DNA from: Lepidurus packardi | Lineage: Eukaryota; Arthropoda; Branchiopoda; Notostraca; Triopsidae | Assembly (NCBI GenBank): GCA_023053545.1 | Contig: JAKZAN010000001.1 | Span: forward strand, 7,894,565 to 7,958,564 | Direction: 5' to 3' | DNA length: 64,000 nucleotides | In this document: one piece after another, positions 1 to 60,229 of the stretch | How the letters are laid out: each line of letters opens with the position of its first letter | How positions within the stretch are numbered: the stretch's first letter is position 1 | Notes under the pieces: model-generated | The model's database searches: none | The model's input: only the letters and a program-made list of their open reading frames with translations | What the model was told of the DNA's origin: nothing | Translations under genes and position numbers: made by a program

Positions 1-107
1 TCGGCTTTCTTTTTTCTTAAGTTTCTTGGAGTGCTCCTCTGCAAGGCGCTCTTTTTCCTCCTTGGCGCGCTTCAGCAGGACTTCTTCCCGTTCAGTATCT
101 GTTAAGT
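1..107 (-). CDS. sls: sls exon 57 (partial): charged helix, runs off the window
   Basis: A frame of 35 codons, open to the left edge, strongly charged (EREEVLLKRAKEEKERLAEE), predicted as a single helix. Fly Sls also enters long charged regions beyond its Ig groups. The exon is cut by the window end. Confidence 0.75.
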
Positions 108-3100: not shown

Positions 3101-6100
3101 TGTAATTCCTGCACAGCTATTTCCCGTTCGACTTTGAGAGTTGCAGAAGAGGCAACGGCGCCAACAGGATTTTCTACGCGCACGGTGTAGGAGCCAGCGA
3201 ATTCCGGTAGCGCTTCGGGAATGAACAAAGTGGAGCGATTATTTTGGCTCGCGATCTGCATGTGAGGTGAGTTGACAATCGGTTCACCATGCTGTAGCCA
3301 GGTAAAGGTAGCTTCCGGAATCGCGTTCACTTGAACTTCAATAATTGCTGCCTCACCTTCGGGTACCGTTTGCGGCTGGAGGGCTTTGGTGAATTGGGGA
3401 GCCAGAGTGCGAGGTTGATCAGCGGTGCCTTCTAGTGTTAAGTCTAGGGTTGCTAGGCTGCACGCCTCCCCCCCTTCGTTGGTCGCCCGAACTTCGTACC
3501 TACCCACGTCCTCTGTCGTAGAATTCATAATAGTTAATGTCGAAACAATGTTCTGGCTTTCTATTTCGTAACGAGGAGAAGGCGTCAGCTCCTGACCATT
3601 TCTGTACCATTTTATGGTAGGCGTCGGACACCCGTCAAACGTGACACTTAGCTCAACTCGATGGCCTGGCACCACCCTCTGTGGTCTGAGTGGATTGGTA
3701 ATGACAGGAGATTGGATAAGTTCCTGGCGACTAACTACAACTAAATCTCCTAAAGTACGTAACCAGTTGGAAAAAGTTATTATCGAGATATGTGTGAGTA
3801 ACGGAGTACTCTTACCGACTACGAGGTTTGCCTCAGATTCCACCTGTCCATGCTTGTTGGTGGCCGTGCAACGATAGATTCCTTCATCGTCAGGGTAAAC
3901 TTCAGTAATCGTCAAAGTAGCTTGGCCTGTTTCGCTGTCATAAATAGGTTTGAAATCGCTGGAAGGTCTTATTTCCCTCTCGCCGCGATACCAGGTCACG
4001 ATCGGAATTGGTTTCCCCACTATCACGCATTGAAACGTTGCCGGCTCTCCGTCAGAAGCCTTGTTCGTAGTTAAAGGACTGGTAAAGCGTGGAGACTCGC
4101 CAGGCTCTTCTTTGGCTACAATGACAAACGAGCGATTTTTATGTACCTGTTAGTTTCTTTCAGCTGAAAATTGTGTTAGTTGCCAAGTAACTATTTGCGT
4201 GGTCAAAGAATGTCGTCACGAGAAGTCGCGACATAGAAGTTAGCATCGCTGAGTTTTTTTTTTCAGTGTTAAATGTATGGTAGCAGGTTAGTTTGGGCAA
4301 ATCAGACAAGGGGATCTGTTGTTTCAGGTAGAGCCAACCGCATGCCAGAGACAGGGATCGGATTTATCACTTGTTTTGACAAAGATCCGCGTGCAGAGAA
4401 TTATAATCATGTCCACAAAAAAGGTCAAGTTCTATGAATGCTTGGCAAACCATTCTGTTTTTACCGAGGCTTTCGGAATGGTAGCAAGCTGCAGTTGGCG
4501 AGGTTCAGCCATGTTTAGAATGTTTGGCAAACCGCAAAGTTTATAGGAGACGAATTTTGGCAGAACTAAGTAAGACCCCGGGGACTGAGAGTTAGTTTGT
4601 AATTAACCGCAAGCCCAGGCAAGAGAAATAAATAAGTGTGGGATGCATTGGACTTACGCTGAACGAGGAGATTCGCGGTAGTCGAGGCTGTTCCAGCATC
4701 GTTGATGGCCCGACAGCTATACATCCCAACGTCTGTGTCTTTAACGCGAAGAATTTCCAAGACAGACTTGTTGGTAAATGAAGTAATAGTAATGCGATCC
4801 GAGGGTTGGATCGTAGCTTCGTTGCGATACCATGTGATGGTAGGAGTTGGATCGCCTTGCAGTTCCACCTGCAACCGTACATTCTTGTCAATTCGGCAGA
4901 CGAGAGGTTGCAGTTTTTTAATGAAAGTCGGAGCAACCATAGTTTGCAACCTAGTTAGGGTAGCTTTTCGTTTGGGTTTTCCAGTTTTGGTCGTTTTCAC
5001 AAAGGTTTCCGTTGTTTCGGCGACTGAAATGTCCGGTTGGAATACCGAAACCGTTTCTTTGGATAACTCAGGTTCTTTCAGTGGGATTACTTGCAGCGGA
5101 CTTGGTTCAGTTTTTAAAAGCGTTTCAATAGTTTGCTGAGTAATTGTGTTTAAGGATATGTCTGTGGAATCAATGTGTGACTGCTCAATATGTCTTTCTT
5201 CGCTTTGCGTTTGAAGCGTGACCTTCTCTACTTTGGTAACCGACGGTTGCAAGGGACCCAAATGCGCCTCCGGCTCCAACGTTACGGTAGGACGTTCTGT
5301 GGAAGGGGTGGGGAATTTGGTTACAACTGAGCTTTGTGTCACTTCAGTTCCTTCCTGTTCTAGTGCGACTTCTGCGAATTCCTGAAGAGTTGTAGTGGAT
5401 TTTGCCTGTTCGGTTTGTGGTTTGCCACGCCTCCACGGCGCTGCTGCTTCTGGTTTGTCGATCTGCTTTTCAGTAGCCATTTGCTGTGTAGTTGTGTGTA
5501 TTACTGGCTGAACAATTGGGATAATTGATTCAGGAGCAATTTTTGTGTGGCTCTCAACAGTTATGGGAGTGCTTTCAGGCTCTTTTGGCTTTAATGCATC
5601 CGTCTTGGCCTCTATAAGAATTTTAAATTCAGGTCCAGATTTCGTTGGAGGCTTTTTTAATGCTATCCCGCCGTGCGATCCTTCAGTTGTATCAGCTTCC
5701 CGCTTGACGGGTTTCAGCTTTACTTTCATGGGCTCAGGCAAGTCGTCTGTTCGCTTAGGTGAAATCTTTTTTAATGTAAACTCTTCCTTGACTACTTCAA
5801 TTGTATCAGCTTCCCGCTTGACTGGTTTCAGCTGTACTTTCGCAGGCTCAGGCAAGTCTTCTGTACGCTTAAATGGAATCTTTTTTAATGTAACCTCTTC
5901 CTTGACAACTGGTTTGTCCTCATACTTTGTGGGGGTTCTCTTCGGAACAATTTGACTAATTTCTTTTACTTCCGTAGGATGTTTGGATGAAGTTACCTGA
6001 ACAAGAGTTGGCTGATCTAGTTTCTGCTCTGTTACTTGAGTCAAAAGGACAAGTTCAGAACTCAGAGTCGGTTCGTGAATAACTTGTTGGAGTGCTGGCT

Positions 6101-35790: not shown

Positions 35791-35813
35791 AGTCAGTCAC
35801 AGTTGGCAAAGCT

Positions 35814-39552: not shown

Positions 39553-40512
39553 TTAAAATTTGTATCGTAGCTCACCCACAGACTTTCCTTTTCCTCCAAC
39601 AGATGCTCCGATAAACCCTATACGCAACCAGAAACGTATGAGAAAATTTTTTAATAATTTTCAAATAGTAAGAATTTCGTGTTGTACCTGGTAGTGCTTC
39701 GCCTGGTTGCAGACATGTGCTTTCGCGAGGAGACACGCTTAGAGAAGATTGGGGCGACGGAGTGTGTTGTTCTCGGCCAGTACCGCACGGTTGGGGAGGC
39801 TGATAAGGTGTAAAGGAGCTTCGTCTAGTTTCGTAGTATCTCGAAGATCCTTTGTCCGACGATATTTCGCGTTCTATCTCTGACAACTCTGAATCCGTAG
39901 TGAATGGCTCCCATTTGGCAGCTTTAAATTGGGCAAAGCGCTTCGGTTTGAAGAGCGGAGCACCGCCAGGACCACTAGAAGCGGTGGAGGGTACCGGGGT
40001 AGCCTTTGTGGTGGTAATAGTAGGCTGGGTGGTTAATAAAGGAGCGGGAGCGTGCTCATGGAGAACGGGTACTTCGGTATTGCCTTCAGTGCCAATAAGG
40101 CTTTCGACCTTGTCTACCTTCTTGGCTTCACCTGGTAGAACGACTCCGAATTCGTACCCGAAGTCGTATTTGAAGTAAATCAAACCCGTATCCGGATCAA
40201 TATGTTTAGTACCTAAGGTCGTAGGATTACAATTCTCGTATTCATTCAAGAGATGGTCTAATTATGTATTACCGTATTCGGAAACACGGGATTCCTCATG
40301 ATACGCTTGTGGCTCTGAGCCTTTGTCCACTGCACTCGCAACTGTGGTGGTATAGGCAGCTTTACTGATACTTGGGACGGGAATAGGCGCCGGCGCGGGT
40401 GATTCTTGCTGTGAACGAGTATTGTTTACTTCAGTCAATATCTGTTCGGCAAAGTTCTGGGTCTTTTCCTTGAATTTTTGCGACATGGTGCTAAACTCGT
40501 GATTGACCATTT
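39553..40512 (-). CDS. zormin: zormin exons 44-46: C-terminal tail
   Basis: Exons 40273-40512, 39688-40257 and 39553-39617. Exons 44 and 45 are both phase 1-1 and so could be skipped singly. Exon 45 ends in QPGEALP, echoing QPGEAPEFGY at the end of exon 43 and LPGEAKKV inside exon 45. The last exon adds about 21 residues, Gly/Lys-rich (GASVGGKGKSVG), and stops at TAA 39555-39553. Inside it a good donor (GTGAGCTA at 39576-39569) could instead splice onward, so the true C-terminus is uncertain. Confidence 0.6.
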
Positions 40513-43500
40513 CTACGCAACATAATTGTAAGTAGACATTATTTAAGTATTGCATAGTCAAACCTACTGCTGGCAGTTGTATGGGCAGCAATATACCCGA
40601 ATTCGGGTGCTTCACCTGGTTGCAAGTATAGCTCAGGTTCGCTAAAATAAGCGGCAGACGACGTAGGAGCTACAGGATATGCTTTGTAGGGCGTGTAAGG
40701 TTTGTTGGGTTTACTTTGCTCAGCCGCTTTAAGGTTAGACATAGGTTGAAGACGAGGTGGCGCTGGTTTGGAAGGGACCATGTCAACAGCTAAGGCGTCT
40801 TTTACTTTGTCGACATCTTCGGAAGTAAGGACGGGACGGGGTGGCCCGTCAAATTTTGGGGGTTGGTCAAATACTGTGGGCGGTGTAGGACTGCGTTTCT
40901 TTTCTCGTTTGTGAGATTTCGGTAAGGTGTGATTCAGATTAGGCGCTTTAATGGTTTTGAAAGTCGGGTCTTCCGCGTCGCTATAAGCTGGAGTCCACTT
41001 CGGTCGAATCCTGGAGCCTTCGTAGTCACTCTCGTAGTCGCTTTCGCGTGTTTCTCCCGGCAGGAACCTTCTCGGCCGAGCTGGAGGCGTGCTGGTTACG
41101 GCAACAGTTGGTTTGGGTAGATCGGGACTGAAAGGGAACGGCTCTAGGACGAGCGGGGTCTGCGTAGGTTGGGAAGCAGGAGCCACGCCGACCATTGGGG
41201 GCGAACCAGGTGTCAGGGGTGGGGTGTTACCAACCTGACTTTGCAGCAGTCTAGTGGAAGCCGAGTCGCTGAGCTGGATCACGCGACTACTTTGTTCCAT
41301 TGTCACAAACCTTTTCGAGTACTGCGTAGTTTCCGAGAATTGCATGCGCTGGGTTTTCTCGGATAACTCGCCGACACCGTCGGTTTTTACCGGTGAAGCG
41401 ACGGAAGGACGAGACGGGCCTTGAACTGTCTGTGGTGACTCGAACTCCGTAGAAGGTGTCGGGACAAGACCATGAGGAGAAACTTTTGGTTCAGTTTTGG
41501 CTAGCAGTTGGGACTGTATCTCGCGGAACTGCAAGCTGTCTTCATTCTCGACCTCGCTCGGTCCCCGCTTGGGTAAGATACGACCGTCGTAGTTGCTATC
41601 GTAGTCACTTTCGCGAAATTCTCCTTTGATAAATCTGTTCGGTTTCGCAAGCTGTACTATTGGCGATTTAACTTTCTTGGGTGCTTGGGAATCCGCGGTG
41701 AATGGGAAAGGCTCCAAAGGCTTAACCACGTGCTTGATAACAGGTGGACAGGCAACGTAAGGCGTGTCTTTGCGTTGGACTGCTTTGGTCTCCGCACTCT
41801 TGGGAACCTCTGGACCGGAAGACTTTAGGATACTCCTCTGGGTAGAGCTTGATGTCGTAGTTGTGCTGGTGGCAGTGACAGTTTCGGATTGCTCAGCTAA
41901 GGGTCTTGCCTCCCAGAAGGATTTACCCTCGCCGGCCTTAAACCCGGTTGAAGAGTCTACTTCTGAACGAGCTTCAGTTTGGATTGGTCTGCTGATGGGT
42001 CGTTGGCTTTCCACGAGCGTCTCAGTTTTCTGGACGATAGTAGGGAGAATCCGTCTGGCCACCTCAACGTGTTGAACAACCTGTGTTGTTGTGGTGGTAA
42101 AAGGTTCTTCTTCTTCGTCTTTCTTCCTCCAAGGTAAGTCTACCTTGACTGTTTCGGAAGGGGGTGGCGGCCAGGGAACATGCAAGGGTTTCAGAGTGTG
42201 TCCCCAGCGTTTTTCCATTTCGAGGGCTTGTTTGGAAGGTTTACCGGAAGCTTTAGCAACTGTGTTGACATCATAGTCAACTACAAATGCAGACTCGTCG
42301 CCAGAGTTACGTTTAGGGACCCAAGAGTGCTCCATGGCTATCGCTTCGGCGGAGGGCTTCTTCTTAGGGACCGCTTGACGTTCCATAGACTGTGTACTAC
42401 GAGTGGCGGGTTTGCATCCGGAGGTAATAGGGAAAACTGCGGGTTGTTGTTTACTTACTGGGCTGGATTGAAGGACGCGAGTCGGAGGGCGAACTTCGGA
42501 GTCACTGAAGTACCCTGTCTGATTGTACCGCTGAGTGATTGCGCTTGACCTGGTTATCATAGTCGACGTGCTGCTTCTCATGAAAGTTTCCTTTTTATCT
42601 TGATGATCAAATGAGCCCATACTGGTCACGTGGCCGGTCGTTAGAACTTGAGGTCGCGTGGAATCAATTTGTGGAAGGTTATCGAAGACGGTGGCCGGTG
42701 TAGGTTCTTTCTCGGGAGCCTGACTGGTTCCACGCGAATTGGACTGCAAAAGTACTTGAACCGGCTGGTAATTCAGGTCTTCCGTGTCACTACCTTGTGG
42801 TACCCATTTGGGAGGAATTTTGCTTTCATAGTCGCTTTCGTAGTCACTTTCCCGGGATAGGCCTTTGACGAACTTTCTGGGTTTCGGAGGGGAGGCAGTT
42901 TTGAGAGGTTTAGGTTTGGCAGGCGAGGCTTCAAACGGGAAAGGCTGCAATTCAGGAAAAGTATCAAATTGGCTGGCGGACCAGTTTGGTTTAGGTCTTT
43001 CTGTGGTTGAAATTAATCCTGAAGCTAGCGGCGATTGCTTAGGTTTTTCTTCGATTGGTGGAGTGGGGATAGGTAGCAAGCGGACGCCACCTGGGACATC
43101 CGTTGGTGTCTTGGACGCCTCCTCAAGTTTTCGAGCCATTTCGGCGATGTCTTCGCGTAGTTTGGGTGGGGAACCGAGCTTGGGCGCAAAGCCAACTTTA
43201 GGCGGCGGTTCAGGAGTCAAGTCTAAGCCGTTACTAGCTGCCTCGGACGTTAAAGTGGTGTCCAATTTGAGGGTTTTATGAACGACTGAAGAAGCTTTAG
43301 TTTCCATACGCTCCTCTTTCCTGGTTTCCGTGAGGGTGGTGAAATCTGTCCGGTGGCGAGTGATGGTGGTTGCAGATATTTGCTGCGTAGGAGCTACTGT
43401 AGGGGCGCTGAAATCTGTTTGATGGTAAGTGATAGTGGTGGCAGATATTTGCTGGGTAGGAACTACTGTGGGGGTGCTGGTTACGGCTGCTACGTTCACC

Positions 43501-46500
43501 ACGGAAGAATAGGTGGTAGGCGGCAGTGCAGGTGGCGCAGCCCGTACTTCTGATGTAGTTTTGACCGTCTTCTCTTCAAATCGCTTGAAATTAGTTTTGA
43601 AGTCGGTTTCGTCCGAGAAGGCTGTTGAAGTTTCTGCGAGAGTCTGTGTTTCCGCGACTACTAAATCGGCAATACTCTGTGCCTCTCCTGCTCGGTTCGT
43701 TGCTTTGACCGCGTATCTACCGCTGTCGAATTCGCTAACTAAAATACAAAATTCTAGAGTTTCCTGCCAGTGAATGGTTGACATTACCGTTGGCGATAAC
43801 GAGACCATGGCGACATTCTTCAGTTTTGAAGCACATCCGATCGTCTAGGATAATAGGCTTCTCATTTTTCGTCCAAATTACGTCCGGTGTAGGAGTACCC
43901 GTCACTTCGACCTCTAAATTAACCCTGAAGCCAGGTTTTACCAATTGTGCTTGCAAACGACGGCCAAACACGGGCGGGAATTGGGTACCTGTCGTCAGAT
44001 TCAGTGATACCGCATTTTTTCATACTGCTTGTGAGGTTACTTACGCCTAACGACGAGATCAGCCGTACTGCTGGCGGTACCGCCACTGTTGCGCGCCGTA
44101 CAAGTATAGCGACCAGCGTCAGCCTCTCTGGTTTGCTTAAGAACTAGTGAAACCTTGCTCAGGCCAAAAGTAATGTCAATATCGTCATTCGATATTAAAT
44201 CGACGCCGTTTTTGTACCATTTGATCTCCGGCTCAGGATGACCTGGTAAAAAAAAGAAAGAATTAGAATTGCATTACAAATAAGATGTAGTGGGTTGACT
44301 GTATCGTACCATCAACTATGCCTTGGAACACTACCCTTGTGCCATCTTCTACCATAATTCCTACTAAAGGTGTGACAAACTTCGGGGCGATAGCTTTGCG
44401 AGGTGTTTTGACCATTGGTTTAACTATGGATTGGGTCTGGAAGTTGCTGGTAGTGACTTGACCACTTTGAGATGAGAAGAAACTGGCGCGTTGTTTGACC
44501 GAAAGTCCTTCTTCATCGTTTTCGACTTGTTGGACTTTCTGAGCATGGATTACGTCAGCTGGATGACCATCCACTTGGCTGACGCTGGTGTGTGATTCGC
44601 TTGTTGTGCTGTTGCTAATAGTGTTGGATTGTAGTGTCGCTTTGCGTACCAGAGTCGTGGACTGAAACGTAGTTTGCGAATAATTTTCAGAACAACTGCT
44701 TAGCGTAGGGATGACTAACGTTGGCTCTACAGTAAAAATAGAAAAAGATCATTGCGGAATTATTTAATGACTGAGCACTTCCCTGCCTTCCCACCAAAAT
44801 AATGTGTGAACAAAAATTCAAAAGAAAGAAAGAGAAACGTAAGCTGATCTCATTAACTCTTAGTAAGTTTGGAAGAAAAAAAATTTCAATTATGTCTCTT
44901 TTAAAGTGCCAGACTTGTAAAGTGTAAAGTACTTACGATGAACTTGAACTAAGGCGGTGCAGATTGCCTTTCCCGCTTCACTTTCTGCTACGCAGGCGTA
45001 ACGCCCCTTTTGCTCTTCTTTAGCTTGTACGATATTCAACCGGTGGAAGGTTCCTTCTGAGCTTAAGGTCAGTTCTTCGTTTGGAACCACTGGCCTGTCG
45101 TTACACAACCATTTTACCTAAACGAATAAAAATGCTAGTATTTCTTTTCTCTCGTCTGTTGAGGAAGTGTTACTTCCGGATAAGGCTGGCCGTGAATTGC
45201 GCATTCTAATGTAATGGGTGTTCCTTGTAGGACATTCACGTCTGTAAAGAGTTTTTGGAATTGAGGGGGGATCTGCGGTACACGTATCTCGGCTGGTGGT
45301 TCTTTAGGCAACACCACGACAGTAGCGTAGCATTTCGCTTCCCCGGTTTCATTACTGGCTTTCACGGTATAAGTACCAGAATGGTACAGCTGGACTTGGG
45401 GAATCGTTAGTTGTGTAGTGCCGTTAGGATCAACCATAATCTGTAGATTCATGTATTTAAGAAATCAATTATTTTTCTTTAACTTGTCCCAATGGGAGTT
45501 TCTTTTTATCTTGCCGTGAAATACTTACTTGAAAACTGGGAGAAGGTGAGAGAAGGGAGCTGTCCCGGTACCAGAAAATGGAAGGACTAGGTTGGCCAAT
45601 GACTTGGGCCTCAAGTGTGATCTTTTCTCCTACGTTCGCTGACAAATCTTTCGTTAAACGAATGAACTTTGGAGGCTGAGCAGTGAGCTGACTAGTAACG
45701 AGTACTTGCGTATGCATTTCCTGTACGAAAGGCTGGCCTGCAACAATGAAAAGTACAAACTTAGAAGAGTATCCTCTGAAAAATCGCGTTCTTTTGGGTA
45801 CCAAGCACAGTGAGTTGACACTGACTAGAAGCCTCGCCGCCTGAGTTGATAGCAACGACTTTATAGCGACCAGAATCTTCTACAAATGCTTCTTTGATGA
45901 TTAAAGAGCAGCGATCGCCTTGGAATAGCAGTTGAAAATCGACTGACTCTTTCACAGGCCGATCGTTTTGAAACCAAATCACCTGAAATAGGAATAGTTT
46001 TTTAGTGATAATACTCCAAAGAGTTATGTTAAAGTACTTCTGGCTCGGGTTGTCCAGTTATAGTACAATCTAACCGAAGGGCTTGTCCTTCGTTTACTAT
46101 CAAATCTTTCAACGCGTTCTGGATCGAAGGTTTGATAGGCTCTACATCCGAAGCCAATTCAGAATCAGACGTTTCAGTTGGCAGTCGACCCTAGAAAACC
46201 ACATTTGTCTTTAATAAGTTAAGTTTCAGCTTAAATAATTTTACTTTGACGGAAAGCTGGCAAGTACAGGAACACTCTCCTGCTATATTCTTGGCTATAA
46301 CAGTGTAAGCGCCTGCGTCTTTGGGAAACGCTTCTGTTATGGTCAAAAAACCTTTATCGCCTTCAACTTGTGTCTACAGATTACATAATAACAAACACTG
46401 TAAAAACTTTTTTAGAAAGAAAACTTCTTACTTTCACTTCGCGAGTTTCTTTTATTACGCGTCCGTTATGGAACCAGTTTAGGGTTGCAGCAGGTATTCC

Positions 46501-49500
46501 TTTGAATTGGCATTCCAGTTTGACCTTTTGACCCGCCCGGGCCATTACGTTGCTCAGCGGAATCACAAATCGCGGCATTTCCGTAGGTTCGAGGGCTAAT
46601 AAACGAGGTAAATTATTTTTGGAAATATTTACAATGAAAAATTATAGTTTCTCTTACGTTCTACTGTTAAGTTTGCCAGCGTTTCAGCTTCACCAGCGTC
46701 GTTCGAGGCTCTGCAGCAATACTCGCCTTGATCTTCAATAAAAACTTCGGCAAACCGAAGGGAACACAAGCCGTTGTTGAAGGTTATGACATAATCTGGA
46801 TGGCAATCCACACAAACGCCGTTTTTGTACCAAGACACAATAGGCAAAGGATGGCCTTTAACTTGGCACTGCCACTCCAACATTTGACCTTCTTGAACGT
46901 GAGCGGGTTCCAGGAAAGTGACAAATTCAGGCCCTACTAAGTCTTCCATAGCTTTACACTCTAAGAATGATTTAGTTTTGAATCTACCTTATGAAAGTAT
47001 GATTTTGTACCTTGAACTTTGAGAGTAGCAGAAGTATGAGCAAATCCAGCGTCGTTACTCGCTTGGCAGGTAAACTTGGCCGAGTCTTCTGTGAAAGTTT
47101 CGTCGATACTCAAACGGCAATGTCCGTCTTTGAAACTCGTACGATAGTCAGGGTTGTTCTGGATCGGAAGGCCGTCTTTCAGCCAGGTCACTTGGGGGAC
47201 AGGTTCTCCAATTACTTGGCATTCAAACGTAAAACCTTGTCCCTCTTCAACCACCGCATCCCGTAATGGGGTGGTAAAGACCGGGCCAGTTTTTTGGGCG
47301 GGAAGCTCGTTCAGACGAACACGACGACTAGGTGGTGCTGGTGGTTCTACTACGGGCGGGGCGGGGCGCGGCGGGGGAGTCTTTTCCTACGAAAATGAAT
47401 ACACATTTGTATGGGGTGTTTGACTGTTTTTAGGAACTTATTCACTTTGACTTGTTGGAAGAGGAGAGTAGCAGCTTCAGCAGCTTTTCTTGCTTCTTCT
47501 GCAGCAATTGCTGCAGCTTTAGCAGCCGCAGCTTCAGCTCGAGCAGCATTCAGTGATTCTTGGATTTCGATCTGGTTCTAGTAGGATACAGGTTTTAGTA
47601 ACCGTCAAAATAAAAGCAAAAAACTGCCTTACTTGGACCTGCTGCACGCGTTCTTCTTGAGCTGTGTGCAAATTTAGGGCCAAAGAAGACAATTCGGTGT
47701 TAATGACCGAGAAAGAGTCGATCATGTCACGGTTCTCTTGATGAACCCCACCCAATTGGCGAGAATTATCACGACCGTAAAGTTGGATAGCTAGGGTGGA
47801 GATTTTGTTTATTCTCTCATCCTGTAGCACTTCACCAGGCTTTAAAAACAGGTCAACTTCTTCTAAGAGTGTGTTTGCTTCCGCAGGAGTTTTGCAGGTG
47901 GTAGATTTCCGGGCGATGGTCACTAATAACTTGCTTCCTTCTTTAAACCACTCTTCCACCTACGAAAAGTCATTATTCTTACTACTTATTGTCTAGACAT
48001 GTGAATAATTACTTACTTGTTCTACTAAACTAAAGTATTCCAAGCTAATATCGATCATCTTCCGGCTGTCGCCCACTTGTCTATCGAAAGTACTCCATTT
48101 GGAGTCAATTTGAGCCAATTCGTTTTCTATGTACGTACGATCGGCTTCCTCGTCGTTCAGCATCTTTTGAGCAGTGCTTACGAAACTATGAATCCGCTTT
48201 TCGAGTAGCTTTACGAAGTAGGCAGTAATAACAAGTCAGCGTTAAGATCCAAACATGAGTGACTAAATTTCACATTTTTAAGCGTCTATTTTACCTGTAC
48301 TGTTTTCTGAAACTGCCCGAACGCTTGAGACGTTGTCTGAGCTGACGTCAGAGATACGCCAAATGCGCCTGTCATGGCTGATAGCTGGTGCATCAAGTCG
48401 TCTAGTTGGATGTTAATCTGATGCAAATCGCAATTGAACTGGCAGCGTTGGCGGTGTTGGATTAGCTTGCTGTAGCGCTCTTCCCAGTACAAACTCCATT
48501 GCACCTGGCGTTTGGGAAGTTCCGAGGCTATCACTTGAATGTCAGATTTGACAGGATTCGCAGGCTCCTTTCCAAATTGAGTTGCTTCGTTATCTTATGA
48601 TCTAAATTTACACGTTTTAGTGTCTTACTTGACTGCGTAACAAGTTGAGCAGTTGATCGGCTTCGTTGCCAGCAAAGCGCAGTAATTCAGCAATGGTTTC
48701 TTTAGCTGCTGAGTGTTCTTGCAAGGCATGGTCCACTTCCGGAACTGTAATGGGCAATTGCTGGCTCTTCAGCGAGTCTACGACTCGGTCGAACTGACGA
48801 GTTTAACATTTATTCTAGCATTTTTAGAGTGAAAGGGGAAGTCATACTTCTTGTAAGTTTTTATAGAAAGCGGTACTGGTCTGGGTCACAATACGGTACT
48901 CAGCCGTCTTTAGCTCGATACGTTGCTGTAAACGCATCAAATCGCCTACGACCTTGGCTTTGGCTTCCTCGTTGCCCGGTAAGTTGAACTGCTGCAAACG
49001 CTGCAGATTTTCGACAACATTAGTCGCCAAAACAGCCGCTTTTAGCTGCACTTGCAGACATTTATGTTCCACGTCGTTAAGCACGGTTTGAGGTGAAGCA
49101 TTGTTCGTGGGTATAATGGGGTACATTTCCAAATCCAAGTCTTTCTCGATGTGAATTACCTACAAATTCTTTACAGTTCAGCAGATTCTTTGAAATTAGA
49201 TCGTGTCTTACGCTGTAAAGTTCCGTGATGAAGACGGTCCAAACTTCTTTAGTTTCTTTCGTGGTAGTGATGTAAGAGATGATCGTTTCTTTGCGTTGAG
49301 CTACGTGAAGCTGACGATTGCCCAAGTGATCCAAAATGCTGTCTATGCATAAACAAGCTTTCTGCAGGCCCAGGAAACGCTCGTTTGCCTAGATAGCCAC
49401 CCGAAAATAAATTCGCGCAAATATAAAAGTCGGATGTTTCGTAGTAATTACTTGGGAGGCATCAGAAATGAAATTGCGTCCCATCTGGCTCAATTGCATG

Positions 49501-52500
49501 TATTTTTGTTTGGAGTTCAGCCACTGCTCGTCGATGGATTTCAGCCATGCGTCGTCCTTGTTGTCCGTCTGACATTCGGCTAGTTCGTTCTCCAACTCCT
49601 CCAGGCTTTCAGATACTTGGAGGGCCAGTGCGTGGAATCTGACGTACGCTTGTATGAGACTGATGCGAGATTCCAGATGAAAATGGAGTTTATCCCAAGT
49701 ATTTTGCAGCTGATCAATTTTAATCTGCAGATCGTGAGCTTGCGCCTCCTCGGCGACTTCTTGCAGAGAAGGCAAACTCTGCAGCAAGCCCTGAATCTGA
49801 CTGCCTTTGATAACCATGTCGCTCATCAGTTGCGAGTGCAGGTCTAGTACTTCTCGTGCTGCCGGTAAGGTTGTTCCCATTTCGGACTGCGCTTTCATGA
49901 AGGCCTCGGCAATGTTAATGAGCCAGGAATATAGCTATATCAAATCAATCGTAAGTCAACTTTTATATGTATTTACTTTTAAAAGAGTTTTCAAAAAAGC
50001 GGAGTTATTTACCGCGTCATATTGATCAATAAAGGAATGAACCGCTTGCATAATCCGCAAACTTTCTTCCTTATGGGCAGTGCAGAGACTGCCCAAATGA
50101 ATGCCTCGGTTCTCTATTTCTTCCACGGTTTGCTGAATCCCCTAATTAATAAAACCCCAGGGTATTATGAGCTGTTGTTTTTTATTTGGTATAGGAATTA
50201 CTTCGGTGCCAGGTTGTCCACGTCCAGTTTTGTCCAGTAACGTGTGTCCGTGATGTAAAGCAGGCGCCGAAGCATCTTCCAACGCACGTGACACTTGAGC
50301 GTGCAATTGGGCCAATTGAGGGCTTCCGTTATGTAGCTCATGAGCTGTTAATTGGACCTCAAGTTGGTCCAGCTTCGTCAACGCCTAAATAAAATAGACA
50401 AATTGCCTAGGGTACAGCTTAACTTTCAAATCTATGTGCTGTTTACCGTCTGAGCAGTACGGAAGAAAGTAATGGACATTGACAAGAGCGACGAGCGGAG
50501 GTCAACAGCTTCCAAATACTCCGAAATCTTTTCTAATAAAGTGTACGCTTCCGAGCGAACTTCCTCGCCGCCATGGCTATTATTAGCTGCCAATTGCTCA
50601 GCAACGCGTACCAGTTTCAGCGCCTTGTCCTTGAGTTCCTAATGTATCCATTAGCGAGCCAGTGTTAATAATGAAAGTTTCCTTTTTGGTTTCATGACGT
50701 ACTTTGCAGTCCGGCGGCAGTTTGTTGTGCTCAAACAAGTACAACTCGGCGCTGGCTGACGAATCGCCCAGATTGCTTTCATGTAAAAGTTGGTTTTGTT
50801 TCTGCTGCTGTTGTAGCATAACTTCCTGTAGGTCTTTCCGTAGGATTGTTAAAGCCAGGCACTGATCCAGTAGTTTTTTTCGACTGACGTATAACACCTC
50901 GGATAAGCGGCGTCGATCGTGTAGGCTTTCGAGCCACCGTTCCACTTGGTTGATTGCTAGAAAGTTTAGAAAACACTTCAATTAACAAGCTAAACTTAAT
51001 GGGAAACATCTCCGCCATGATTAATGAAACCTTGTCTGACATCCGGGAGGATATGGCCCGGCCTGGAATCCATGGAACCCTGCTCTTGCCAGGTTCGCAG
51101 TCGTTCCAACAAAACTTCCCCTTCTTGGAGGGCCCAGCGATGGGCCTCCAGGGCAGATCTTCGAGACTCGGATTGTTGGGTTAACAGACGTTTGACTTCG
51201 TCTACTTCTCTGGGCAGATGTTCGCTTTGATTTTCTTGGTCCAAAGCCCCTAGTTTGTCCAAGTAATCTCTCTCACGACTGAAAATGAAACGAAAGCATT
51301 AGGTTTTAACAGAAGTTGGGCGAGAGAAAAGGGGACTGATGTTTGAAAAGGCACCTATGGAAAGCTACGTTGGCGTCCAAAATGTGTTTGCGTTGTTCCA
51401 ATTGCCAATTGAGGTCCTTCCAGGCTTGTCCGAGGGATTCGGCCATGGCTGCGTACACTTCAGCTTTCGGCTTTTGAGTCGCGATGAGTTGGTCAGCCTG
51501 TTTGAGCAATTCTTCCACGGGGCTTTGTTTATTCTACGTTAGACAGAATAGTATTGATAGTGATATTGATCTATGTAGGGATGAATCATGTGGACTGACT
51601 TGTAATTTGTTCAGGACGTCATGGTGGGTAGTTTGCAGTTCGTAGGCCTCCTCCCAGGTCTCCCCCAGCTGAGTCAGACTCGGACTCATCTCCAAGATAG
51701 TAAGTCGCAACCATTCTTTGCTCTATAGATCCAAAAATTCAAAAAGAACGTAATAAATGTCTCTATTTGATAAATGGTATCTGTTCTTCATTCGCCGCAA
51801 AACCAGGTAAGGACAGTCTCTTTTTCTATTTTGAAAAGTACCGTTTGTTGTTGGAGTAAGATTTCCTTTCTTGTTATTAAAACTACGATCTTCACTCATA
51901 TTTCAGCGTTTCTTTATCCAGATGGATAGAGATTAGTTCTGCTATCATTTAATGTATTATTGTAAAAAATAAATAACCGTTTTTAAATGACGTGATTGAA
52001 CTTTGGCGGCAAAAAGAAGAAGCTCCACGCAGTGATAAGAGTTATGGTTATTGTCTCGTGCATTGATATCGATCTAAGATTTATTTATTTATTCTACAAT
52101 CTCCACAATAAAAGAACGCCAACTTCTTAGCCTGATTGCGTAGTAACTAAGCATATGGCAAGATTTATTTTTTAAATAAAAAATCTTCTATATTAAGGGC
52201 ATGATGTGAAACACGAAAATAGTCGTCATAGGAGACAAAATAGGACTGGTTCCGATTCTATCGTGTGGGTTGTGACCTCCATTATAATGCAAAAGAGGAT
52301 CCATTTCATTCTTTTATGACTTGTTCAAGAATCGACCTCTGCGACGACTTAAATCATAGGGGACTGCGTGTATTGCCATATAAGGCAGCTTAGACGTGAT
52401 CGGGGAGTTAAAAGCGACAGCTGATATGTAAATCTGTCACTGTCTATTGCAATATAGCTTGGTGGAATTGTTCCCCTAGGAGATTGTTAAAGTTTACTTG

Positions 52501-55500
52501 TAAAAACAATTGTTTTGTTTCATCTGCATATGGACGGGGTTTTGGGTATCAATTACTTATGGTCAAGTACAGTATGGTCAAGGATATAGTATGATAGTAA
52601 TTACAGTATGGTCAAGGATATAGTATGATAGTAATTACAGTATGGTCAAGGATATAGTATGATTGTAATTACAGTATGGTCAAGGATATAGTATGATTGT
52701 AATTACAGTATGGTCAAGGATATAGTTTACCCCGCTTTTGCGTGCATCAGTTGTGTGGGTGTTTGAGTAGGGGAAAACAGTAAACAAAAGTGTTTTGTTT
52801 ATATATGTTCAATTTGTACACTAAAAGCCGGGTTTCGTTTCCTTGTCGTCCCCTGAGACCCTTGTTTACTTTGTCTTACCATTTGTCACCTGTCATCCGT
52901 CATTCGTGGCTACAATGCATTGTGCCCGGGAGCCAAGATTAGCTCTTGACTAATCGTGCGCTATTATAGCACTTATAAAGCGGATGCTTCCGAACGCATT
53001 TGTGTGCTGATTTATGGCAGCTTTTCTTATCGTGAAGTTCTAATCTGGTAGGCTTTTGAAAACGTGGCGCAATGTTCAGAATGTTGTTTGTGATCGTATT
53101 TATGTTTAGAAGAAGAGGACCGAAGGGCGAGAGCTAATGATGGAATAAGATGGAAAGCGATGCACGGTGCACTGTAGTGCAGCTCATTGCTATTTCTGTC
53201 TTGTCTTCCGTTTACACTTGGCGTATACGAACAACCCACGATCCCATGCCAAATTTCTCTCAAGCTGTGGGGAACCATGCATCCGACACCAGCAAAGAGC
53301 TAGTGTTGGGGTGTTTTTCTTTTTCGATTACATAAAAAGCTAAAAACTTTAAAGATCCCTCTCCCGGATTCCCAAGATAACGAAACCCGAAGTAAACAGA
53401 GAAATCTTAGAACTGTTAGTTATCAGTCTTAAGAATCTACACTGCTTTTAAAACTCGGCGGAACGAATGGTTAAGTATCGTTGACCTTTTCGACCCGTTT
53501 GACTCATTAGCAAGATGTTTCGTGCCAAATGTTTCGTTTGGGTAAAACGAGTACCCCCAGTAGCTTTTAAAGTATACCTGTAAGAGCGCAATAACTATAC
53601 GTGTGGCACCGCTTTGCACGGCGATGGTGGAAAGCGTTGTCGTGGGCGGAATAACGGCAGTACTACGCAGAGACGGTGTTAGAGATGCTCGTGAGCCGGC
53701 TACGGACATGGAACTCTCCGATTCGGACAACAAGCCCACAGCTTCCAACATGGTGTTGTCCAGCACTTTTATTAATACCTTTTAAGCACTTAGTAACAAA
53801 AAATAGTCTTCCTCGCGTCGATTTAGCTGGCACGAGCGGGCAGTTGGCAGGCGTTAATCCGTAAACTAATGGACGGCAGGATTTAAACTCATCACACGGA
53901 AGGATGAGAGCAAACTTGGATAGCAAACCAACCACGCCCTAGTAGTTGGGAAACTGAATATGAAAAGTGAAATCCGAGGGATGTTTTTGGATGCTGGCAG
54001 GCTGGCCGAGCGTCCTAAGCGTCTCTACGCCTCTGTAGGAGCACTTCTGGTTTTTGGCGTCTTCTCGCTGGTTTTGGAGAGCCAATTCTGTCCCCACTCA
54101 TTCCTCTCGTTCGCTCTGCCCCTCTTCCTTTTTCACTTTCCCCCTTTTAAACTTGGAAGAAGCGAACTATACCCTTCCCCTAATGGCATTGCGATATCTT
54201 TCCCCGTCCTATAACTGTTGCCATTTCAGTTAAAAGATACCGAAAAGGCTTAGCTCCTGAGCCCTACTCGCAGTTTTCGTAGACTAATTAACGCCCGTAG
54301 CAAGAGCATTAGCACAGTCCCTACTTAATAGATTGTAGTTGTGTTTGTGAGCACAAATTCCACTCCCACACTTATTTTTATTCTTTTGGAGATTGAGATA
54401 AACAGATGCTATCAACTGCAATTGCTTTCGTGAGGTTTCTGCCAGCGTTGTATGCTTGCACATGACGAAGGGAACGTTGGCAAAGAACTGAAAACGAGTT
54501 AACATATGCGTGATGCTTTTGCAGTGGTAACCTAAAGCCATAGCAGACAAGTCAAGCCCCCAAAAACCAGTCCTTGAATGGGAAATCCATGTTTCGCTTG
54601 CAGTTATGGTTTTGTTGTCTTTTTCCAGCTCGGGGTATATATATATATGGCCCTGGCATATAAACACTACGCATGGTGGCCATTGCTTCAGGTTGGGCAA
54701 ATAAAGAGCCGCTAGCTTGTTTAACGAACTGCGACCGGAACTTGAGGTGTTACGAACTAATAAAAAAAAGTAATAAAAAATGTTATCGCGAACATTTCGC
54801 GTCTTTTCACAGTCAGCCAGGATTGCTCTTCTGAGCGCTGACAAGGCATGTGTGGATGGTATCATATGTGCCTGAGGAAATCCGAATCGACAAGAGAGAC
54901 AAAGTGTGCCACCACGCTGCTATTGTTGCTTATCCTCATAGAGCATACCCAAAGCTGAGCCGGAAACAATCCTAGTCATTGCCTGTCCTTCTTTAATGAT
55001 CGTGCGAAAGGGTCCTTGACTGAGAAACGTGGTTTGGCACGATTTCATTGGATTGCGGCGACTCTGCGGCTCGGATGCTGTTTTATTTTTGTTTGTTTGT
55101 TTCTTTTAAGTCTTTTCTTTTTCTAAATCCAAGATTGTAGGTTAGTTAGATGACATCTAACCTGGGAATGATTCTCATGATTTATGATGTGAATGGCTCC
55201 TTGCATGGGAAATATTCCTATGATCTGCTTTGAACTGCATATTTTTTATGTCTATGAGGCACACAAATAGTCCGGAGTCCGGGCAACGATCGTAGATCGT
55301 AGCACTTGACTTACTTGGTAAATATTCTTCGCCAAGGCGTCGGTCTCTCGGTCGTTTTGATCTAACGGAACGCCGTCCAGAATGGCTAACATACGTAGCG
55401 CAAAGGCTGATGGGGACCAAGCGTGTTCGTCATGTAAATTGCTCGGAATTACGTACAACAGACGGAAAAGGACATCCGAATGGATACTAGTGTGAATATT

Positions 55501-58500
55501 CGGACAGGCGTCCTAAAATAAGAACACACAGATGTTCCCAGCGAAGATCCAAAATCAACCAAGTTAAAACAATTATTGCTACCATACAATATGTCCATGC
55601 TGTATTGGCTTGGCGGTTCAGGTTAGCGCGAGTTGATCAATTTGTCGGTCTAATGACACAGGTCTCTTATTTTATTCTATAAATTATGTTATCATTCTTC
55701 AAACCAGGCAAATATGCGTAAAAAGTGAAAGGGCAAGGTTTTGATTTGGCTTAATAGGGAATTACATAGAAATTTAGGTCAAAGAAAAGCAATCAGAAGT
55801 AAGAACTACACGTGGCTGGTGATGGTGGGATGTACCGTGATGCAGAGTAATGAGACAGGAAAAGGTAGTCGTGACTGCCACGGGACAGGTCAGACGATGA
55901 GGTTTGTTTAAAACTTACGGGCAGTTGCATGTTGTTATTCCAACAGTCTACTACCGAGTCTGAAAACGCGCTATCCTTGGACTGATCCGCGTCTGCATCT
56001 TGGTTTTCGGTTTCCGGGGCAACGCAAACGCTGAGGGTCGTCCCGAACCCAGAATCTTCTGACAAACTTGGCGATCTGCCGCCAGGGGGCATAAGTACGG
56101 TGGATTCCGACATCGTGAGGAGCGATGAATGATTCGTATTATTGGAAGTTATATCCACGCTGATACACTCCATGGGGGGCTTAACTCGCAGATTCTGGTC
56201 CACAGCCGAAGAACAAGGGGGACTCTGCAACAAAATGGCGTTGACTTGATCTGCGAACGTCACGGACTTTTCTTTCTTATGCGGTGACGACGGTTTGTTG
56301 GCATCGGTCACGAGAATAGAGTGCTTTTCTATCGTATCGCCATTGGGGGCCGTGGTAGATGGCGAGGTTTCACGACTGAGGTCGCTGCAGGTGCATTCCG
56401 AAGCTGTTTGATAGCAGGATAAGGAAGATTGCTTGTCCAACGACTCGCAGACAGTGACAAATTCATCGCTACTCGAAGCGGATTCGTTGACCTGCCCTTC
56501 GTTTTCCCGCTCCTAGTCATCGTTACAAGAAATTCGTTAGTATGTTATGCACAAGTACGAATTTTCCTTTTTACAAGGAAACTGAGATTGTAAATAGGTT
56601 TTACCTGGTTCTCTTGGTCCATTAGCGTAGCTTTCTCGGTTAGGTTCGATAACCCGAATTCTTGCGCGTGACGACAAATCGCATCGTCCAGCTGCTGAGC
56701 CAAATTGGTAATATCCACTATGGCATTTAGGATAGTTTCGGCAGCCAATTGATTATCCGGAGACGTGTCAAACCTATACAAAGAAATGGACCTTCTTCAT
56801 TCCGGGTTGGGTATGTGTACACTGGTCTCGAGATTTGATGCGACTGCCATGAAAATTCCAGCTCAAAGACGTACAAGCTTGACTGACTTATTTTGCATCC
56901 TTTATGTGGATGGAGGTCACCTGTTCCCCGTTTGCTTATATGCGCGTTTCTAACTTTAGCTTTTCTCCCTCTCCAGACACGCCCCACTTGATTAAAAAGA
57001 CCCGAAAGAAAGCTCAAGACATGATGGATCTGCAATAATTGTAGTTAAAAATTCCCCCTATCGCCCTCCGAAGAAAGAAAATGCCGAACAATTACTATAA
57101 AAGTTTTATGTGTACCCTTCGCCGGGCAGGAGAGGATCCAAGATTCGGCCTTTAAGGAGCTTCCCGAGTCTCATTGTTCGACCGACAGCTTGGAGTAATA
57201 GTTCTCGGTTTTCCAGAAAAGCTTCCAAAGCAGGATTTCGGTTTGAGGGAGACTGCTGTGAAGACGCTACTATAAAAGTAGACTGTTGCCAGATATTTTC
57301 GTTGCTATGCCGGATCTGAGACGCACAGAGTTTTGGCAAGCTTTTCATAAGGCCGATAATGTCCTTTTCGTGCTAGAAGATTTGCCAAAACATTTGCAAA
57401 ATGGAGAAAAAAAGAATGTTGCGTCAGTAAAAGAATAGCGTAAATTGCCGTAATTTATATATTCTATTTACTTGTGCCATGTCGCGGTAGAAGACGCCGG
57501 CTACACGCAGCCGGCTCATTTGTTCCCGTACAGCTGCCAGTAGTAATGTCCATGCATGGCCTAACTCGGCTGCCAAATGACGATTGTTATCTGCCGAAAG
57601 ACCCGCTGACCGACGCAAGACCAATGCGGCCATTAGCAACCCGGACCCGTATTCATACGTGCCCTAAATTGGGAAAAACTGTAACTGAAACCCGTAAATT
57701 GGTACTAGTTTTTCAATTTACTCGTGCGGTTTCCTGAAACTTCTGTTGCTGTTGCTTCAAGCTATGCACTTCAGACACATGGCAGCCAACTCTGCCTTGG
57801 GAAGTGCGCATAACATTACAAAGATCGCGTAACCATGATAAGGCCTGTGTTTGTAAAAAAAGTAATTAAACTAGAGAATATTGAGAATATGATAATTAAA
57901 AGGGTAAGTTTTTTACTTGCTGGGCATCTTTTTCGCAAGTACCGATTTCGATGATTCGCCGCAGTCGCAAGCGTTCCATGACCCAAGCTTGTTGCAATCG
58001 TTCTTGACCATCTTGGATGCGCTGGAGCAAGTTTTGTACATGTTGTCTATCGCCACGTTGGTCGTAACCGCTAAGTTCGCGACCTACTGCATCTCTGGGC
58101 GGAACCGTGAGCATATCAAGTAGTTTCTGGGCTTCGCTTTCTGCATCATTGCAAAGCTCACCTGAGCCAAAGAGAATTTGTTTTTATATGTATAAATAAA
58201 TCCAGAAAAGTTAAATCCAGAAAAGATGAGTACAGTTCCTCTTACCGATTACTCGCTGGTAGTCCTCCAGCAAGGACATGGCAGTTTCTGCAGCTCGAGG
58301 GTCTTCGCCCACGTTAGTGGTTTGAGCTACTTGCAAGGCTTCTGCCAATTTCAGGTGAAACTACCCGGATTGGATGCGGTTAACCATTAAGTTACGTTTG
58401 GGAATGGAAAATTACTTGATCGAGAAGCCGATGGAAGCGAGTTGAGGCTATCAGGACCCTTCTTCTGCGTTCTAACAGACCTGCAAAAGTGCGGCAAACG

Positions 58501-60229
58501 TTATCCATGAAGTTCTTTCGAGATTTGAGGTCCTCAGGAATGATTAGATTGGATCGAAGGAGAGTTACCAGCCGGTGCCGGGCTTCGGCATATTTTCCGT
58601 ACGTTTCCTGCTAGTTGGAAAGCGAAAGAAAAAGAAAGAAAGGAATATGCACTTTAGCCTGTATTCCTTTTTCGCAGGTAAACTAAGTCGTAGAACTCGT
58701 ACTCTGCATTTGAGCTCCACGTTTTCCAGTTCTTGTTGCAAAACACAGACAGAAGTTGAATCATTGCCAATTCCTCGAAGAACCAGCTGCCCGAGTAATT
58801 CGGCGCCAGGTCCCAGGATCCAGGATGTCACTTGTCCCATATGCGTTTCTAATAACCGGACTTGGGTCGCGTGCTGGATCCCACATTGCAATTCCGTATA
58901 CAGCTCCTCGGATTGTCCCACACGGGTCTGGACTTGACTTAAAATATCATTTACCTACAGCCATAAACCAGGTTCATACAAAAAATTTATTTCCCACATA
59001 TGAAGGGGAAGGTAAGCCACAAAATTATACCTTTTTCTGGCAACTGACCGTGTACTCGCTTAATGACCCATCCGCTTTGGCTAACTTGAAACCGGATTCT
59101 TCGTCCGTCTCGAGCTGGACTACCAGTTGGCAGCCTATCAGTTAAAAACCGTAAGGGAGATGCCATGGGTGATTTATAGGTTTTTGTTTTTACCGTTTAG
59201 TTCCAATTTCCGAGCCAGTTCGATATGTTCCTTATACAGGGTTTCCGTAGCTGCCATCCACTCTGCTAATCGAAAACCTCCATCCTTCTTTTGCAAGGCC
59301 ACGCTGTGCTCAAGTCGGGAATGAATCGAGTCTAACCCTGACATGACAACCCGACTTTCCCGTACAAAGTCCTCGAATCTCTGTCACAATCCCAAAATCA
59401 GTCCAAGTCTATTTTTGTTTTTGTTGGGGTGGGGATTCGAAAGAAAATGTGAGAAATATCTTACCAAACGGTTGTGAACCCATTGCGAATGTTGGTACGA
59501 CATCGATCCTCCGAGTTCTTCCGGCAAATCGCTAGGATCCACAAAAAGTCGATGTAGTTTGGGTACTGATACGTACGTCACTTTGTCTTCCTGACGGTCT
59601 CGCATGCAATCCACGTGCTGTTTCTCCCAAAACAGTTCTGGCTTGATGGCTAACAATGCACTAATTGAGTCCGAGGCGGTGACACTTTGGATAATCTCTG
59701 CAGTTCGCCGTAATAATCGCCAACACGATTGTCGTCCGTCCAAAATCACTGTAAACTGGGTCTTATCACTCACTTCCCTGTAAACGGAAAAGTTATTTCG
59801 TAAAGTTACAAGTTAAATGGCTGCAGTTTTTTGTTTAAAAAGAAAGGAGGATTCTTCTGTTTACTTGAGGATTTGATGAAAGTATTGAAACACTGCTTCC
59901 AAATCACGACTGCGGTTTTGGTCTAAGGCATGGTAGTCCCCAGCCAAAGCGGAAGGAAATGGATGTGGTACGTTGGAACCCACCGGCACACTGTTACTCG
60001 ACGGTTCTTCTACCACAACTGATGAGTTTTGGTGGAGAGTAGGTAGGGTTGTAGTAGTGGTAGTAGTGCTGTTGTTGCTAGTGACTGGCACAATGAGGAC
60101 AGGTGCCCCGCTTTTGTCCTGACCCCCTGGGAAATAGGCCAGTTTCCGGGTCAGCAACGAAATGACTGGACGTCCATCCGCCATGGGACTGGTCGACGCT
60201 GGCAAAGTCTTATTCCCTTCGTCCGTCAT
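39553..60229 (-). CDS. zormin: zormin-like giant SEC14-spectrin-Ig protein (whole gene model, 46 exons)
   Basis: Coding exons can be chained from ATG 60229-60227 to TAA 39555-39553 with GT-AG introns and consistent phase at all 45 junctions, giving 4,564 residues. Domain order: SEC14-like (about 1-226), spectrin-like helices (about 230-840), Ser-rich insert (840-1037), more spectrin/coiled-coil repeats (1040-2250), Ala/Glu helix (2250-2293), eight Ig domains (about 2310-3240), long disordered tail. The first half resembles vertebrate SESTD1. The Ig half and position upstream of sls fit fly zormin, a Z-disc and M-line protein. I am sure of the exon chain within each half. That both halves form one transcript is inferred from phase; a break at the long introns (53779-55314, 51723-53577) is possible. 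No kinase, Fn3 or DH-PH domain is seen, which argues against obscurin/unc-89. Confidence 0.78.
40568..43738 (-). CDS. zormin: zormin exon 43: giant disordered exon with RESDY repeats
   Basis: A 3,171-bp phase 1-1 exon (about residues 3217-4273). It opens with the last strands of Ig8 (SGRYAVKATNRAGEA) and then is Pro/Ser/Thr/Lys-rich and disordered. It holds three copies of a ~50-residue unit built as LxPFPF ... RESDY[ED]S[DN]Y[ED] ... PK at about 42772-42951, 41519-41720 and 40942-41150. Two copies of KPSxxAxxMExxW lie around 42190-42390. A short N-terminal repeat (APTQQISATTIT) is duplicated near 43380-43470. These are probably linear docking motifs rather than folds. Partners are unknown to me. 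Confidence 0.82.
43739..47386 (-). CDS. zormin: zormin exons 31-42: eight Ig (I-set) domains
   Basis: Exons 47011-47386, 46658-46951, 46432-46595, 46245-46373, 46038-46190, 45802-45982, 45529-45737, 45174-45440, 44937-45117, 44310-44726, 44045-44242, 43788-43988; Ig8 finishes in the start of the next exon. Each domain shows the I-set signature: start P-x-F, B-strand Cys or equivalent, C-strand Trp, then D-x-G-x-Y-x-C. Ig5 has Val in place of the final Cys (GTYTVKASN). Ig3-Ig6 are each split by an intron at about mid-domain. A Ser/Thr-rich linker of about 90 residues in exon 44310-44726 separates Ig6 and Ig7. Such domains bind other sarcomere proteins and carry force. Confidence 0.87.
47446..47577 (-). 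CDS. zormin: zormin exon 30: Ala/Glu-rich helix
   Basis: A 132-bp phase 0-0 exon encoding 44 residues (2250-2293), mostly Ala, Glu, Lys and Arg (ARAEAAAAKAAAIAAEEARK). It should form a straight single helix joining the spectrin rod to the Ig array. The next exon opens with a Pro-rich stretch (EKTPPPRPAPPVVEPPAPP), which would make a flexible break. Confidence 0.7.
47633..51722 (-). CDS. zormin: zormin exons 16-29: second spectrin/coiled-coil rod
   Basis: Exons 51600-51722, 51355-51533, 51031-51278, 50703-50956, 50447-50638, 50202-50384, 50013-50141, 49452-49934, 49212-49388, 48848-49159, 48629-48793, 48295-48567, 48017-48208, 47633-47959 (residues about 1171-2249). The predicted protein is uninterrupted amphipathic helix with spectrin-repeat landmarks (QAWKDLNWQLEQRKHIL, QNTWDKLHFHLESRI, VQWSLYWEERYSKL). 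Most exons are phase 0-0, unlike the Ig exons. The arrangement, spectrin repeats then Ig, matches vertebrate CCDC141. One donor (exon 18, G|GTTTCATTA at 51030) is weak but is the only one near the exon end that gives the required phase 1. Confidence 0.75.
52376..52423. promoter_or_regulatory. CArG box plus E-box in zormin intron 15
   Basis: CCATATAAGG fits CC(A/T)6GG, the SRF site typical of muscle genes. A CAGCTG E-box follows after 32 bp. Function is inferred from motifs and place only. Confidence 0.35.
52558..52727. repeat. 34-bp minisatellite, about 4.6 copies
   Basis: Units 52571-52604, 52605-52638, 52639-52672 and 52673-52706, then 20 bases of a fifth, preceded by a partial copy. The core is AGTATGGTCAAGGATATAGT. 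Units 1-2 carry GATAGTAATTAC and units 3-4 GATTGTAATTAC, a single-base variant shared in pairs. Confidence 0.95.
53578..55512 (-). CDS. zormin: zormin exons 14-15: junction between the two halves
   Basis: Exons 55315-55512 and 53578-53778 (residues 1038-1170). Exon 14 encodes a non-repeat, moderately hydrophobic helix-rich stretch (SDVLFRLLYVIPSNLHDEHA). Exon 15 starts with a helix and turns into a Ser/Thr-rich segment (SESESSMSVAGSRAS, PPTTTLSTIAV) before resuming a helix. Both are phase 0-0. They are flanked by the two longest introns inside the coding part (1,536 and 1,855 bp), so if the gene is really two transcription units the boundary is here. Confidence 0.6.
53779..55314 (-). other. 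zormin intron 14 (1.54 kb)
   Basis: Non-coding by my reading. It contains an uninterrupted 193-codon ORF on the minus strand (54284-54865) with no recognisable motif, and a TATATATATATA stretch at about 54636-54650. A minus-strand start here could begin a transcript for the second half of the gene, but no promoter is clear. Confidence 0.5.
55671..56512 (-). other. Candidate alternative 3' terminal exon (short SESTD1-like isoform)
   Basis: Reading through the exon-13 donor adds a Ser-rich 42-residue tail ending in ATCSSYF and a stop at 55793-55795. A minus-strand AATAAA (plus-strand tttatt, 55671-55676) lies 117 nt past the stop, a normal distance for a poly(A) signal after a short 3' UTR. 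Using this end would give a protein of about 1,079 residues holding only the SEC14 and spectrin half, like stand-alone vertebrate SESTD1. Seen: open frame and hexamer. Inferred: that it is used. Confidence 0.45.
55919..56512 (-). CDS. zormin: zormin exon 13: Ser/Thr-rich insert
   Basis: A single 594-bp exon, phase 0-0 and so removable in frame, encoding 198 residues (840-1037) rich in Ser, Thr, Asp and Glu with no helical repeats (for example SSSDEFVTVCESLD, SPSLSEDSGFG). It looks like a disordered, phosphorylatable linker after the SESTD1-like rod. The exon ends at donor GTAAGTTT (55918-55917). If the donor is not used, the frame stays open for 42 more codons to a stop at 55793-55795; see the alternative 3' end entry. 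Confidence 0.75.
56605..59134 (-). CDS. zormin: zormin exons 4-12: SESTD1-like spectrin repeats
   Basis: Exons 59031-59134, 58703-58954, 58416-58610, 58246-58360, 57917-58161, 57722-57844, 57472-57663, 57116-57372, 56605-56773 (residues about 289-839). The translation is continuously helical, with heptad-like Leu/Gln/Glu spacing and Trp at repeat cores (VTSWILGPGAELL, ALSWLRDLC, HAWTLLLAAV). The stretch MERLRLRRIIEIGTCEKDAQ...TYEYGSGLL follows SESTD1 over its spectrin region. Expected role: a rod linking the lipid-binding head to the rest of the protein. Introns are 50-340 bp. The donor of exon 11 (GTACAC) and of exon 5 (GTACGA) are non-classical but phase-consistent. Confidence 0.8.
59194..60229 (-). 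CDS. zormin: zormin exons 1-3: SEC14-like domain
   Basis: Exons 59865-60229, 59465-59777 and 59194-59380. Residues 16 to about 226 align in order with the SESTD1 SEC14 domain: RKLAYFPGGQDKSGAPVLIVP, then ILDGRQSCWRLL, then PELFWEKQ, then LGGSMSYQHSQWVHNRL. SEC14/CRAL-TRIO folds bind lipids; the SESTD1 one is reported to bind phosphoinositides and TRPC channels. Between the first strand and the DGR motif there is a Thr/Ser/Val-rich insert of about 45 residues (plus strand about 59960-60090) that I do not recall in vertebrate SESTD1. Exon 3 starts the first spectrin-like helix. Identity of the domain is strong; lipid binding is inferred. Confidence 0.85.

Follow-up and report, generated by a model that had tools for sequence, protein, structure and literature searches.

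The window that we analysed, a 64,000-base stretch of the notostracan Lepidurus packardi genome (bases 7894565-7958564 of contig C1, JAKZAN010000001.1), harbours three adjacent genes on the minus strand whose models follow one another, in the order of transcription, as a SESTD1-like, a zormin/CCDC141-like and an sls/titin-like gene. A preliminary description of this DNA had placed a SESTD1-like module, a module of spectrin repeats and immunoglobulin (Ig) domains and an sls module in the same direction within 60 kb, and the minus-strand gene models together with matches to Pfam and the PDB bear out this layout. The genome comprises 108.6 Mb in 344 contigs, with a G+C content near 45%, of which C1-C6 measure 10.7-14.0 Mb each. 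The features on which the analysis rests are as follows:

55793 to 60229, minus strand: coding span of the SESTD1-like gene, 13 exons, 1077 amino acids, with stop codon (hand-corrected model, Pfam)
59465 to 60166, minus strand: SEC14 region of the SESTD1-like gene, about residues 22-226, in exons 1-2, with a low-complexity insert (match to the kalirin SEC14 structure 7ur2 in the PDB)
55671 to 55676, minus strand: poly(A) signal AATAAA 3' of the SESTD1-like stop codon (motif scan)
55315 to 55512, minus strand: in-frame linking exon of doubtful standing, through which the SESTD1-like gene might run on into the zormin-like gene (open frame, coding score)
39553 to 53751, minus strand: coding span of the zormin/CCDC141-like gene, about 32 exons, about 3,400 amino acids (gene models, Pfam)
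53578 to 53751, minus strand: separate start exon that opens the zormin/CCDC141-like coding sequence, with 58 codons in phase 0 (ATG, donor site, frame)
40568 to 43738, minus strand: long low-complexity exon of the zormin/CCDC141-like gene, 3.2 kb, with three copies of a RESDY motif (gene model, motif scan)
1 to 35301, minus strand: 5' part of the sls/titin-like gene, which runs past the left edge of the window (gene model, Ig motifs, PDB)
35301 to 35112, minus strand: tentative first exon of the sls/titin-like gene, the next exon lying at 28930 (gene model)

The gene models derive from a gene finder that was purpose-written for the window and trained on the window's own long frames. Across the whole window, the minus strand yielded 105 exons with 33,303 coding bases at a log-odds score of 4454, the plus strand one antisense model inside sls exons (score 15), and three copies of the window shuffled in two-base blocks next to nothing (scores 0.2, 0 and 0). 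Under its initial settings everything had been strung into a single gene padded with numerous tiny, spurious exons; this output was discarded and the settings were replaced. The retained run merged the SESTD1-like and zormin-like parts and placed doubtful exons at 36455 and 35864; we corrected the SESTD1-like and early zormin-like exons by hand from the sequence and rechecked frames and splice sites.

The SESTD1-like gene starts with an ATG at 60229, coinciding with the end of the interval that the preliminary description had covered. A PDB search with the N-terminal 234 residues of its product returned the SEC14 domain of kalirin (7ur2, E 7.4e-21) as the sole match at E up to 10, in two colinear stretches that flank the low-complexity insert. 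In a Pfam scan of residues 1-839, the Spectrin_SESTD1 family (PF24915) matched residues 461-567 above its cut-off (32.2 versus 27 bits) and the general Spectrin family stayed below its own (17.1 versus 29.9 bits). The scan of these 839 of the 1077 residues turned up neither a RhoGEF nor a kinase domain at an E limit of 0.01. All 12 matches of a whole-genome search with the SESTD1-like protein (E up to 1) fell within the SESTD1-like gene itself, and no paralogue was found at this threshold. The Pfam result thus favours a SESTD1 identity, though it is not overwhelming on its own.

As an alternative to SESTD1, the gene could be of TRIO/kalirin or MCF2 type, in which case its adjacency to zormin would be coincidental. 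The kalirin match in the PDB speaks for such an identity, but kalirin would be returned either way if the PDB holds no SESTD1 structure. The TRIO locus of this genome likewise gives weak matches to PF24915: as a control we scanned three stretches of it, one of which matched PF24915 and Spectrin at 17.6 and 25.2 bits, both below threshold, and the other two gave no match. Against this identity stand the Spectrin_SESTD1 match above its cut-off, the want of RhoGEF and kinase matches in the scanned residues and a separate TRIO orthologue on C6 at 8.21 Mb, where a GEF1 exon (locus L017) matches kalirin at 6.2e-33, TRIO at 2.6e-30 and DBS at 1.2e-11. We therefore regard a TRIO/kalirin or MCF2 identity as very unlikely and retain SESTD1 for the first gene. 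L015, a sizeable RhoGEF frame at 7.22 Mb on C1, was also considered as TRIO and rejected, TRIO sitting on C6; by eye it looks like an FGD-type protein.

The second gene encodes spectrin repeats followed by Ig domains, with Spectrin, Spectrin_7 and I-set all above their Pfam cut-offs. Six I-set stretches were found in the two separate parts scanned (four and two), and an NCBIfam search with the zormin-like N-terminus gave nothing close to the cut-offs. Some of the exon joints are uncertain and the last small exon was read by eye. Within the long low-complexity exon, a RESDY(E/D)S(D/N)Y-type motif occurs three times (42854-42840, 41615-41601 and 41048-41034, minus strand), each copy preceding acidic and proline-rich sequence, and is perhaps a short binding motif. 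The long first intron of the gene carries 4.7 copies of a 34-base repeat unit, 99% identical to one another (52568-52726).

The predicted product of the third gene comprises 6994 amino acids in the window, with 40 recurring Ig-type motifs, six I-set domains in its first 920 residues (Pfam) and six matches to a strict linker pattern. Searches of the PDB with its first Ig domain and with a pair of Ig-linker units placed titin on top in both cases (E 1.1e-36 among 177 sequences, and E 1.9e-32 among 74 sequences). The inclusion of sls in the cluster is upheld, but the window contains only its 5' part. Elsewhere in the sls-like gene, a PW(K/R)xG motif occurs four times in large unstructured exons (about 6950-5438, minus strand), and a stretch of 114 bases is duplicated at 5681-5910.

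We also compared the gene products with provisional versions of human SESTD1 and CCDC141, not taken from a sequence database and written out after reading the window, so that this comparison is a lead and not a test. The search set (n=1583) consisted of the products of the three genes, 1540 open frames taken from 24 loci (L001-L024) and 40 shuffles. As leads only, the provisional SESTD1 aligned with residues 22-691 of the first gene product (25% identity, E 1.9e-46), and the provisional CCDC141 aligned with residues 31-140 (42%, 2.8e-15) and 979-1064 (31%, 1.3e-9) of the second. Beyond this, SESTD1 matched only six frames of L023, a locus within the window (best 7.3e-9), and the second gene product (0.065); at E up to 1 neither the 40 shuffles nor the TRIO loci were matched.

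According to Hanashima et al. 2025 (PMC12198301), the human SESTD1-CCDC141-TTN triplet corresponds to Drosophila CG15822-zormin-sls, CG15822 being a gene separate from zormin, and both triplets are proposed there to descend from one ancestral gene, “connectitin”, itself a paralogue that arose by duplication from TRIO/KALRN and that exists as one gene in cnidarians and placozoans. The same account refers to previously reported transcripts spanning CCDC141-TTN and zormin-sls, naming Labeit 2006 and Burkart 2007 as its sources. Judged by the titles and abstract openings of the papers listed, we found no publication beyond PMC12198301 that links SESTD1/CCDC141/TTN with CG15822/zormin/sls. In fly muscle, zormin serves as a Z-band marker alongside kettin (PMC4095857), and it is listed among the proteins whose loss compromises the Z-disc (PMC8534295).

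The preliminary description had treated the first two modules as the two halves of a single zormin gene and zormin, accordingly, as the counterpart of both SESTD1 and CCDC141. A joint transcription unit, akin to the cnidarian connectitin and with a short form stopping behind the SESTD1 part as an alternative, finds a basis in the stop-free frame that leads from the last SESTD1-like exon via 55512-55315 into 51722 (1699 amino acids), the path that the gene finder picked. The coding score of this linking exon is -2.5, inside the range of non-coding sequence as defined by 1189 overlapping stop-free windows of 198 bases (median -20.7, 95th percentile 2.4), and the 13 SESTD1-like exons score 12-68, though these were part of the training set. 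On the linking exon the score is not decisive: the first exon of the second gene, likewise absent from training, comes out near zero as well (-0.4). Other evidence argues against fusion, as the SESTD1-like frame ends in a stop codon with an AATAAA about 120 bases further on (AATAAA/ATTAAA are common, with 15 in the two intergenic stretches scanned), and the second gene has its own first exon, which in the provisional alignment lies inside the CCDC141-like part and hence argues for two genes. A fused gene is accordingly an improbable explanation, and it is similarly doubtful that splicing via 55512-55315 still makes a single long protein of the two parts, as a bilaterian remnant of the single connectitin gene. 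As in human and fly, the counterparts of SESTD1 and CCDC141 are best read here as two separate genes. Of the preliminary description, the domains of both halves and the equation of zormin with CCDC141 hold up, whereas its single gene reads better as two: a zormin with a first exon of its own and an apparently separate SESTD1 counterpart that closes with a stop codon and poly(A) signal of its own.

Taken together, the three co-directional genes are very probably the orthologues of SESTD1 (fly CG15822), CCDC141 (zormin) and titin/sallimus, and the remains of one ancestral TRIO/kalirin-like connectitin locus. The gene models, order, strand and domains on which this reading is based come from the window, and what is known of the counterparts in human and fly and of their shared origin comes from the literature. 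The order and orientation had been said to mirror human SESTD1-CCDC141-TTN, and the cluster to predate the split between arthropods and vertebrates; both statements agree with the window and with the account in PMC12198301. The window is a further instance of a known conserved cluster, the idea having already appeared in print in 2025 (PMC12198301). Spectrin repeats and Ig domains are common enough for unrelated genes of these kinds to become neighbours, and the PDB matches of the second gene are generic, but mere adjacency by chance is scarcely credible given that the three architectures, their order and their strand are all as described for human and fly (PMC12198301) and that the first gene has family-level matches (Spectrin_SESTD1, kalirin-type SEC14).

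Several observations nevertheless weigh against orthology of all three genes and their common origin. The first 655 residues of the second gene product retrieved ordinary spectrins only from the PDB (three matches, best E 1.5e-4), and CRAL_TRIO_2 remained below threshold in the first gene (17.8 versus 23 bits). When PF24915 was scanned exon-wise across the whole genome, the window ranked third of four (18.3 bits), with the TRIO locus (20.6 bits) and a site on C5 (18.6 bits) ahead of it and a small contig behind (17.5 bits); one of 14 prokaryote control genomes also gave a match below threshold. It is because this genome-wide scan stayed sub-threshold throughout, with the TRIO locus and a control genome among the matches, that the Pfam support for SESTD1 is not overwhelming. 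Numerous Ig proteins other than titin also match both pieces of the third gene in the PDB, and for this reason its Ig domains are of titin type without proving orthology by themselves. Moreover, the human letters compared are provisional rather than drawn from real animal proteomes.

The wider linkage known from chordates appears to differ. In amphioxus, TRIO and the titin gene are described as sharing a chromosome (PMC12198301). Such TRIO-titin linkage does not appear here, TRIO being on C6 and the three-gene cluster on C1 at 7.9 Mb; the location of TRIO on a different large contig therefore suggests that the wider linkage was not kept in this genome, with C1 and C6 assumed from their size to be different chromosomes. 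In the same genome, CRAL_TRIO matches follow one another on one strand of C2 over 7.5 kb (12110249-12117689), which suggests SEC14-like lipid-transfer genes in tandem. Beyond C1-C6 there are about 338 further contigs, which may be unplaced pieces, haplotigs or foreign DNA; seven of them, 52-96 kb in size, contain good CRAL_TRIO, RhoGEF or spectrin matches.

If the three genes do descend from a TRIO/kalirin-like connectitin locus, that locus would already have been divided into three genes in bilaterians. By analogy with the fly and vertebrate families, the first gene would encode an adaptor that combines SEC14 and spectrin domains, the second an Ig scaffold of the sarcomere at Z-disc and M-line, and the third an elastic filament anchored at the Z-disc. 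Shared muscle enhancers or other shared regulation, or read-through transcription, would be the likeliest reasons for the linkage to have been kept, and with three co-oriented genes in 60 kb of a small genome, the cause (shared enhancers or read-through) becomes testable. The window is one more compact case of neighbouring genes held together since before the protostome-deuterostome split, and so lends support to sls, by position, as titin's counterpart; PMC12198301 leaves this point open with respect to projectin/twitchin.

Human SESTD1, CCDC141 and TTN are co-oriented, as are the genes in the window. Compared with the connectitin of cnidarians and placozoans and with TRIO/KALRN (PMC12198301), the window shares SEC14, spectrin repeats and Ig domains in series, but those are single genes with RhoGEF and kinase domains, whereas the window holds separate genes in whose scanned parts Pfam matched neither RhoGEF nor kinase. 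The likeness to the human locus at 2q31 (PMC12198301) extends to order and domain types; it differs in that human CCDC141 has one Ig domain and the second gene in the window at least six, and in that vertebrate titin unites I-band and A-band parts, whereas of the sls-like gene only the 5' part is seen. Drosophila CG15822-zormin-sls, as portrayed in PMC12198301, resembles the window in gene order, in the succession of SEC14-spectrin, spectrin-Ig and I-band titin-like architectures and in a SESTD1 counterpart that stands apart from zormin, a likeness by published description rather than by sequence; as a difference, the second and third genes in the window lie about 4-11 kb apart.

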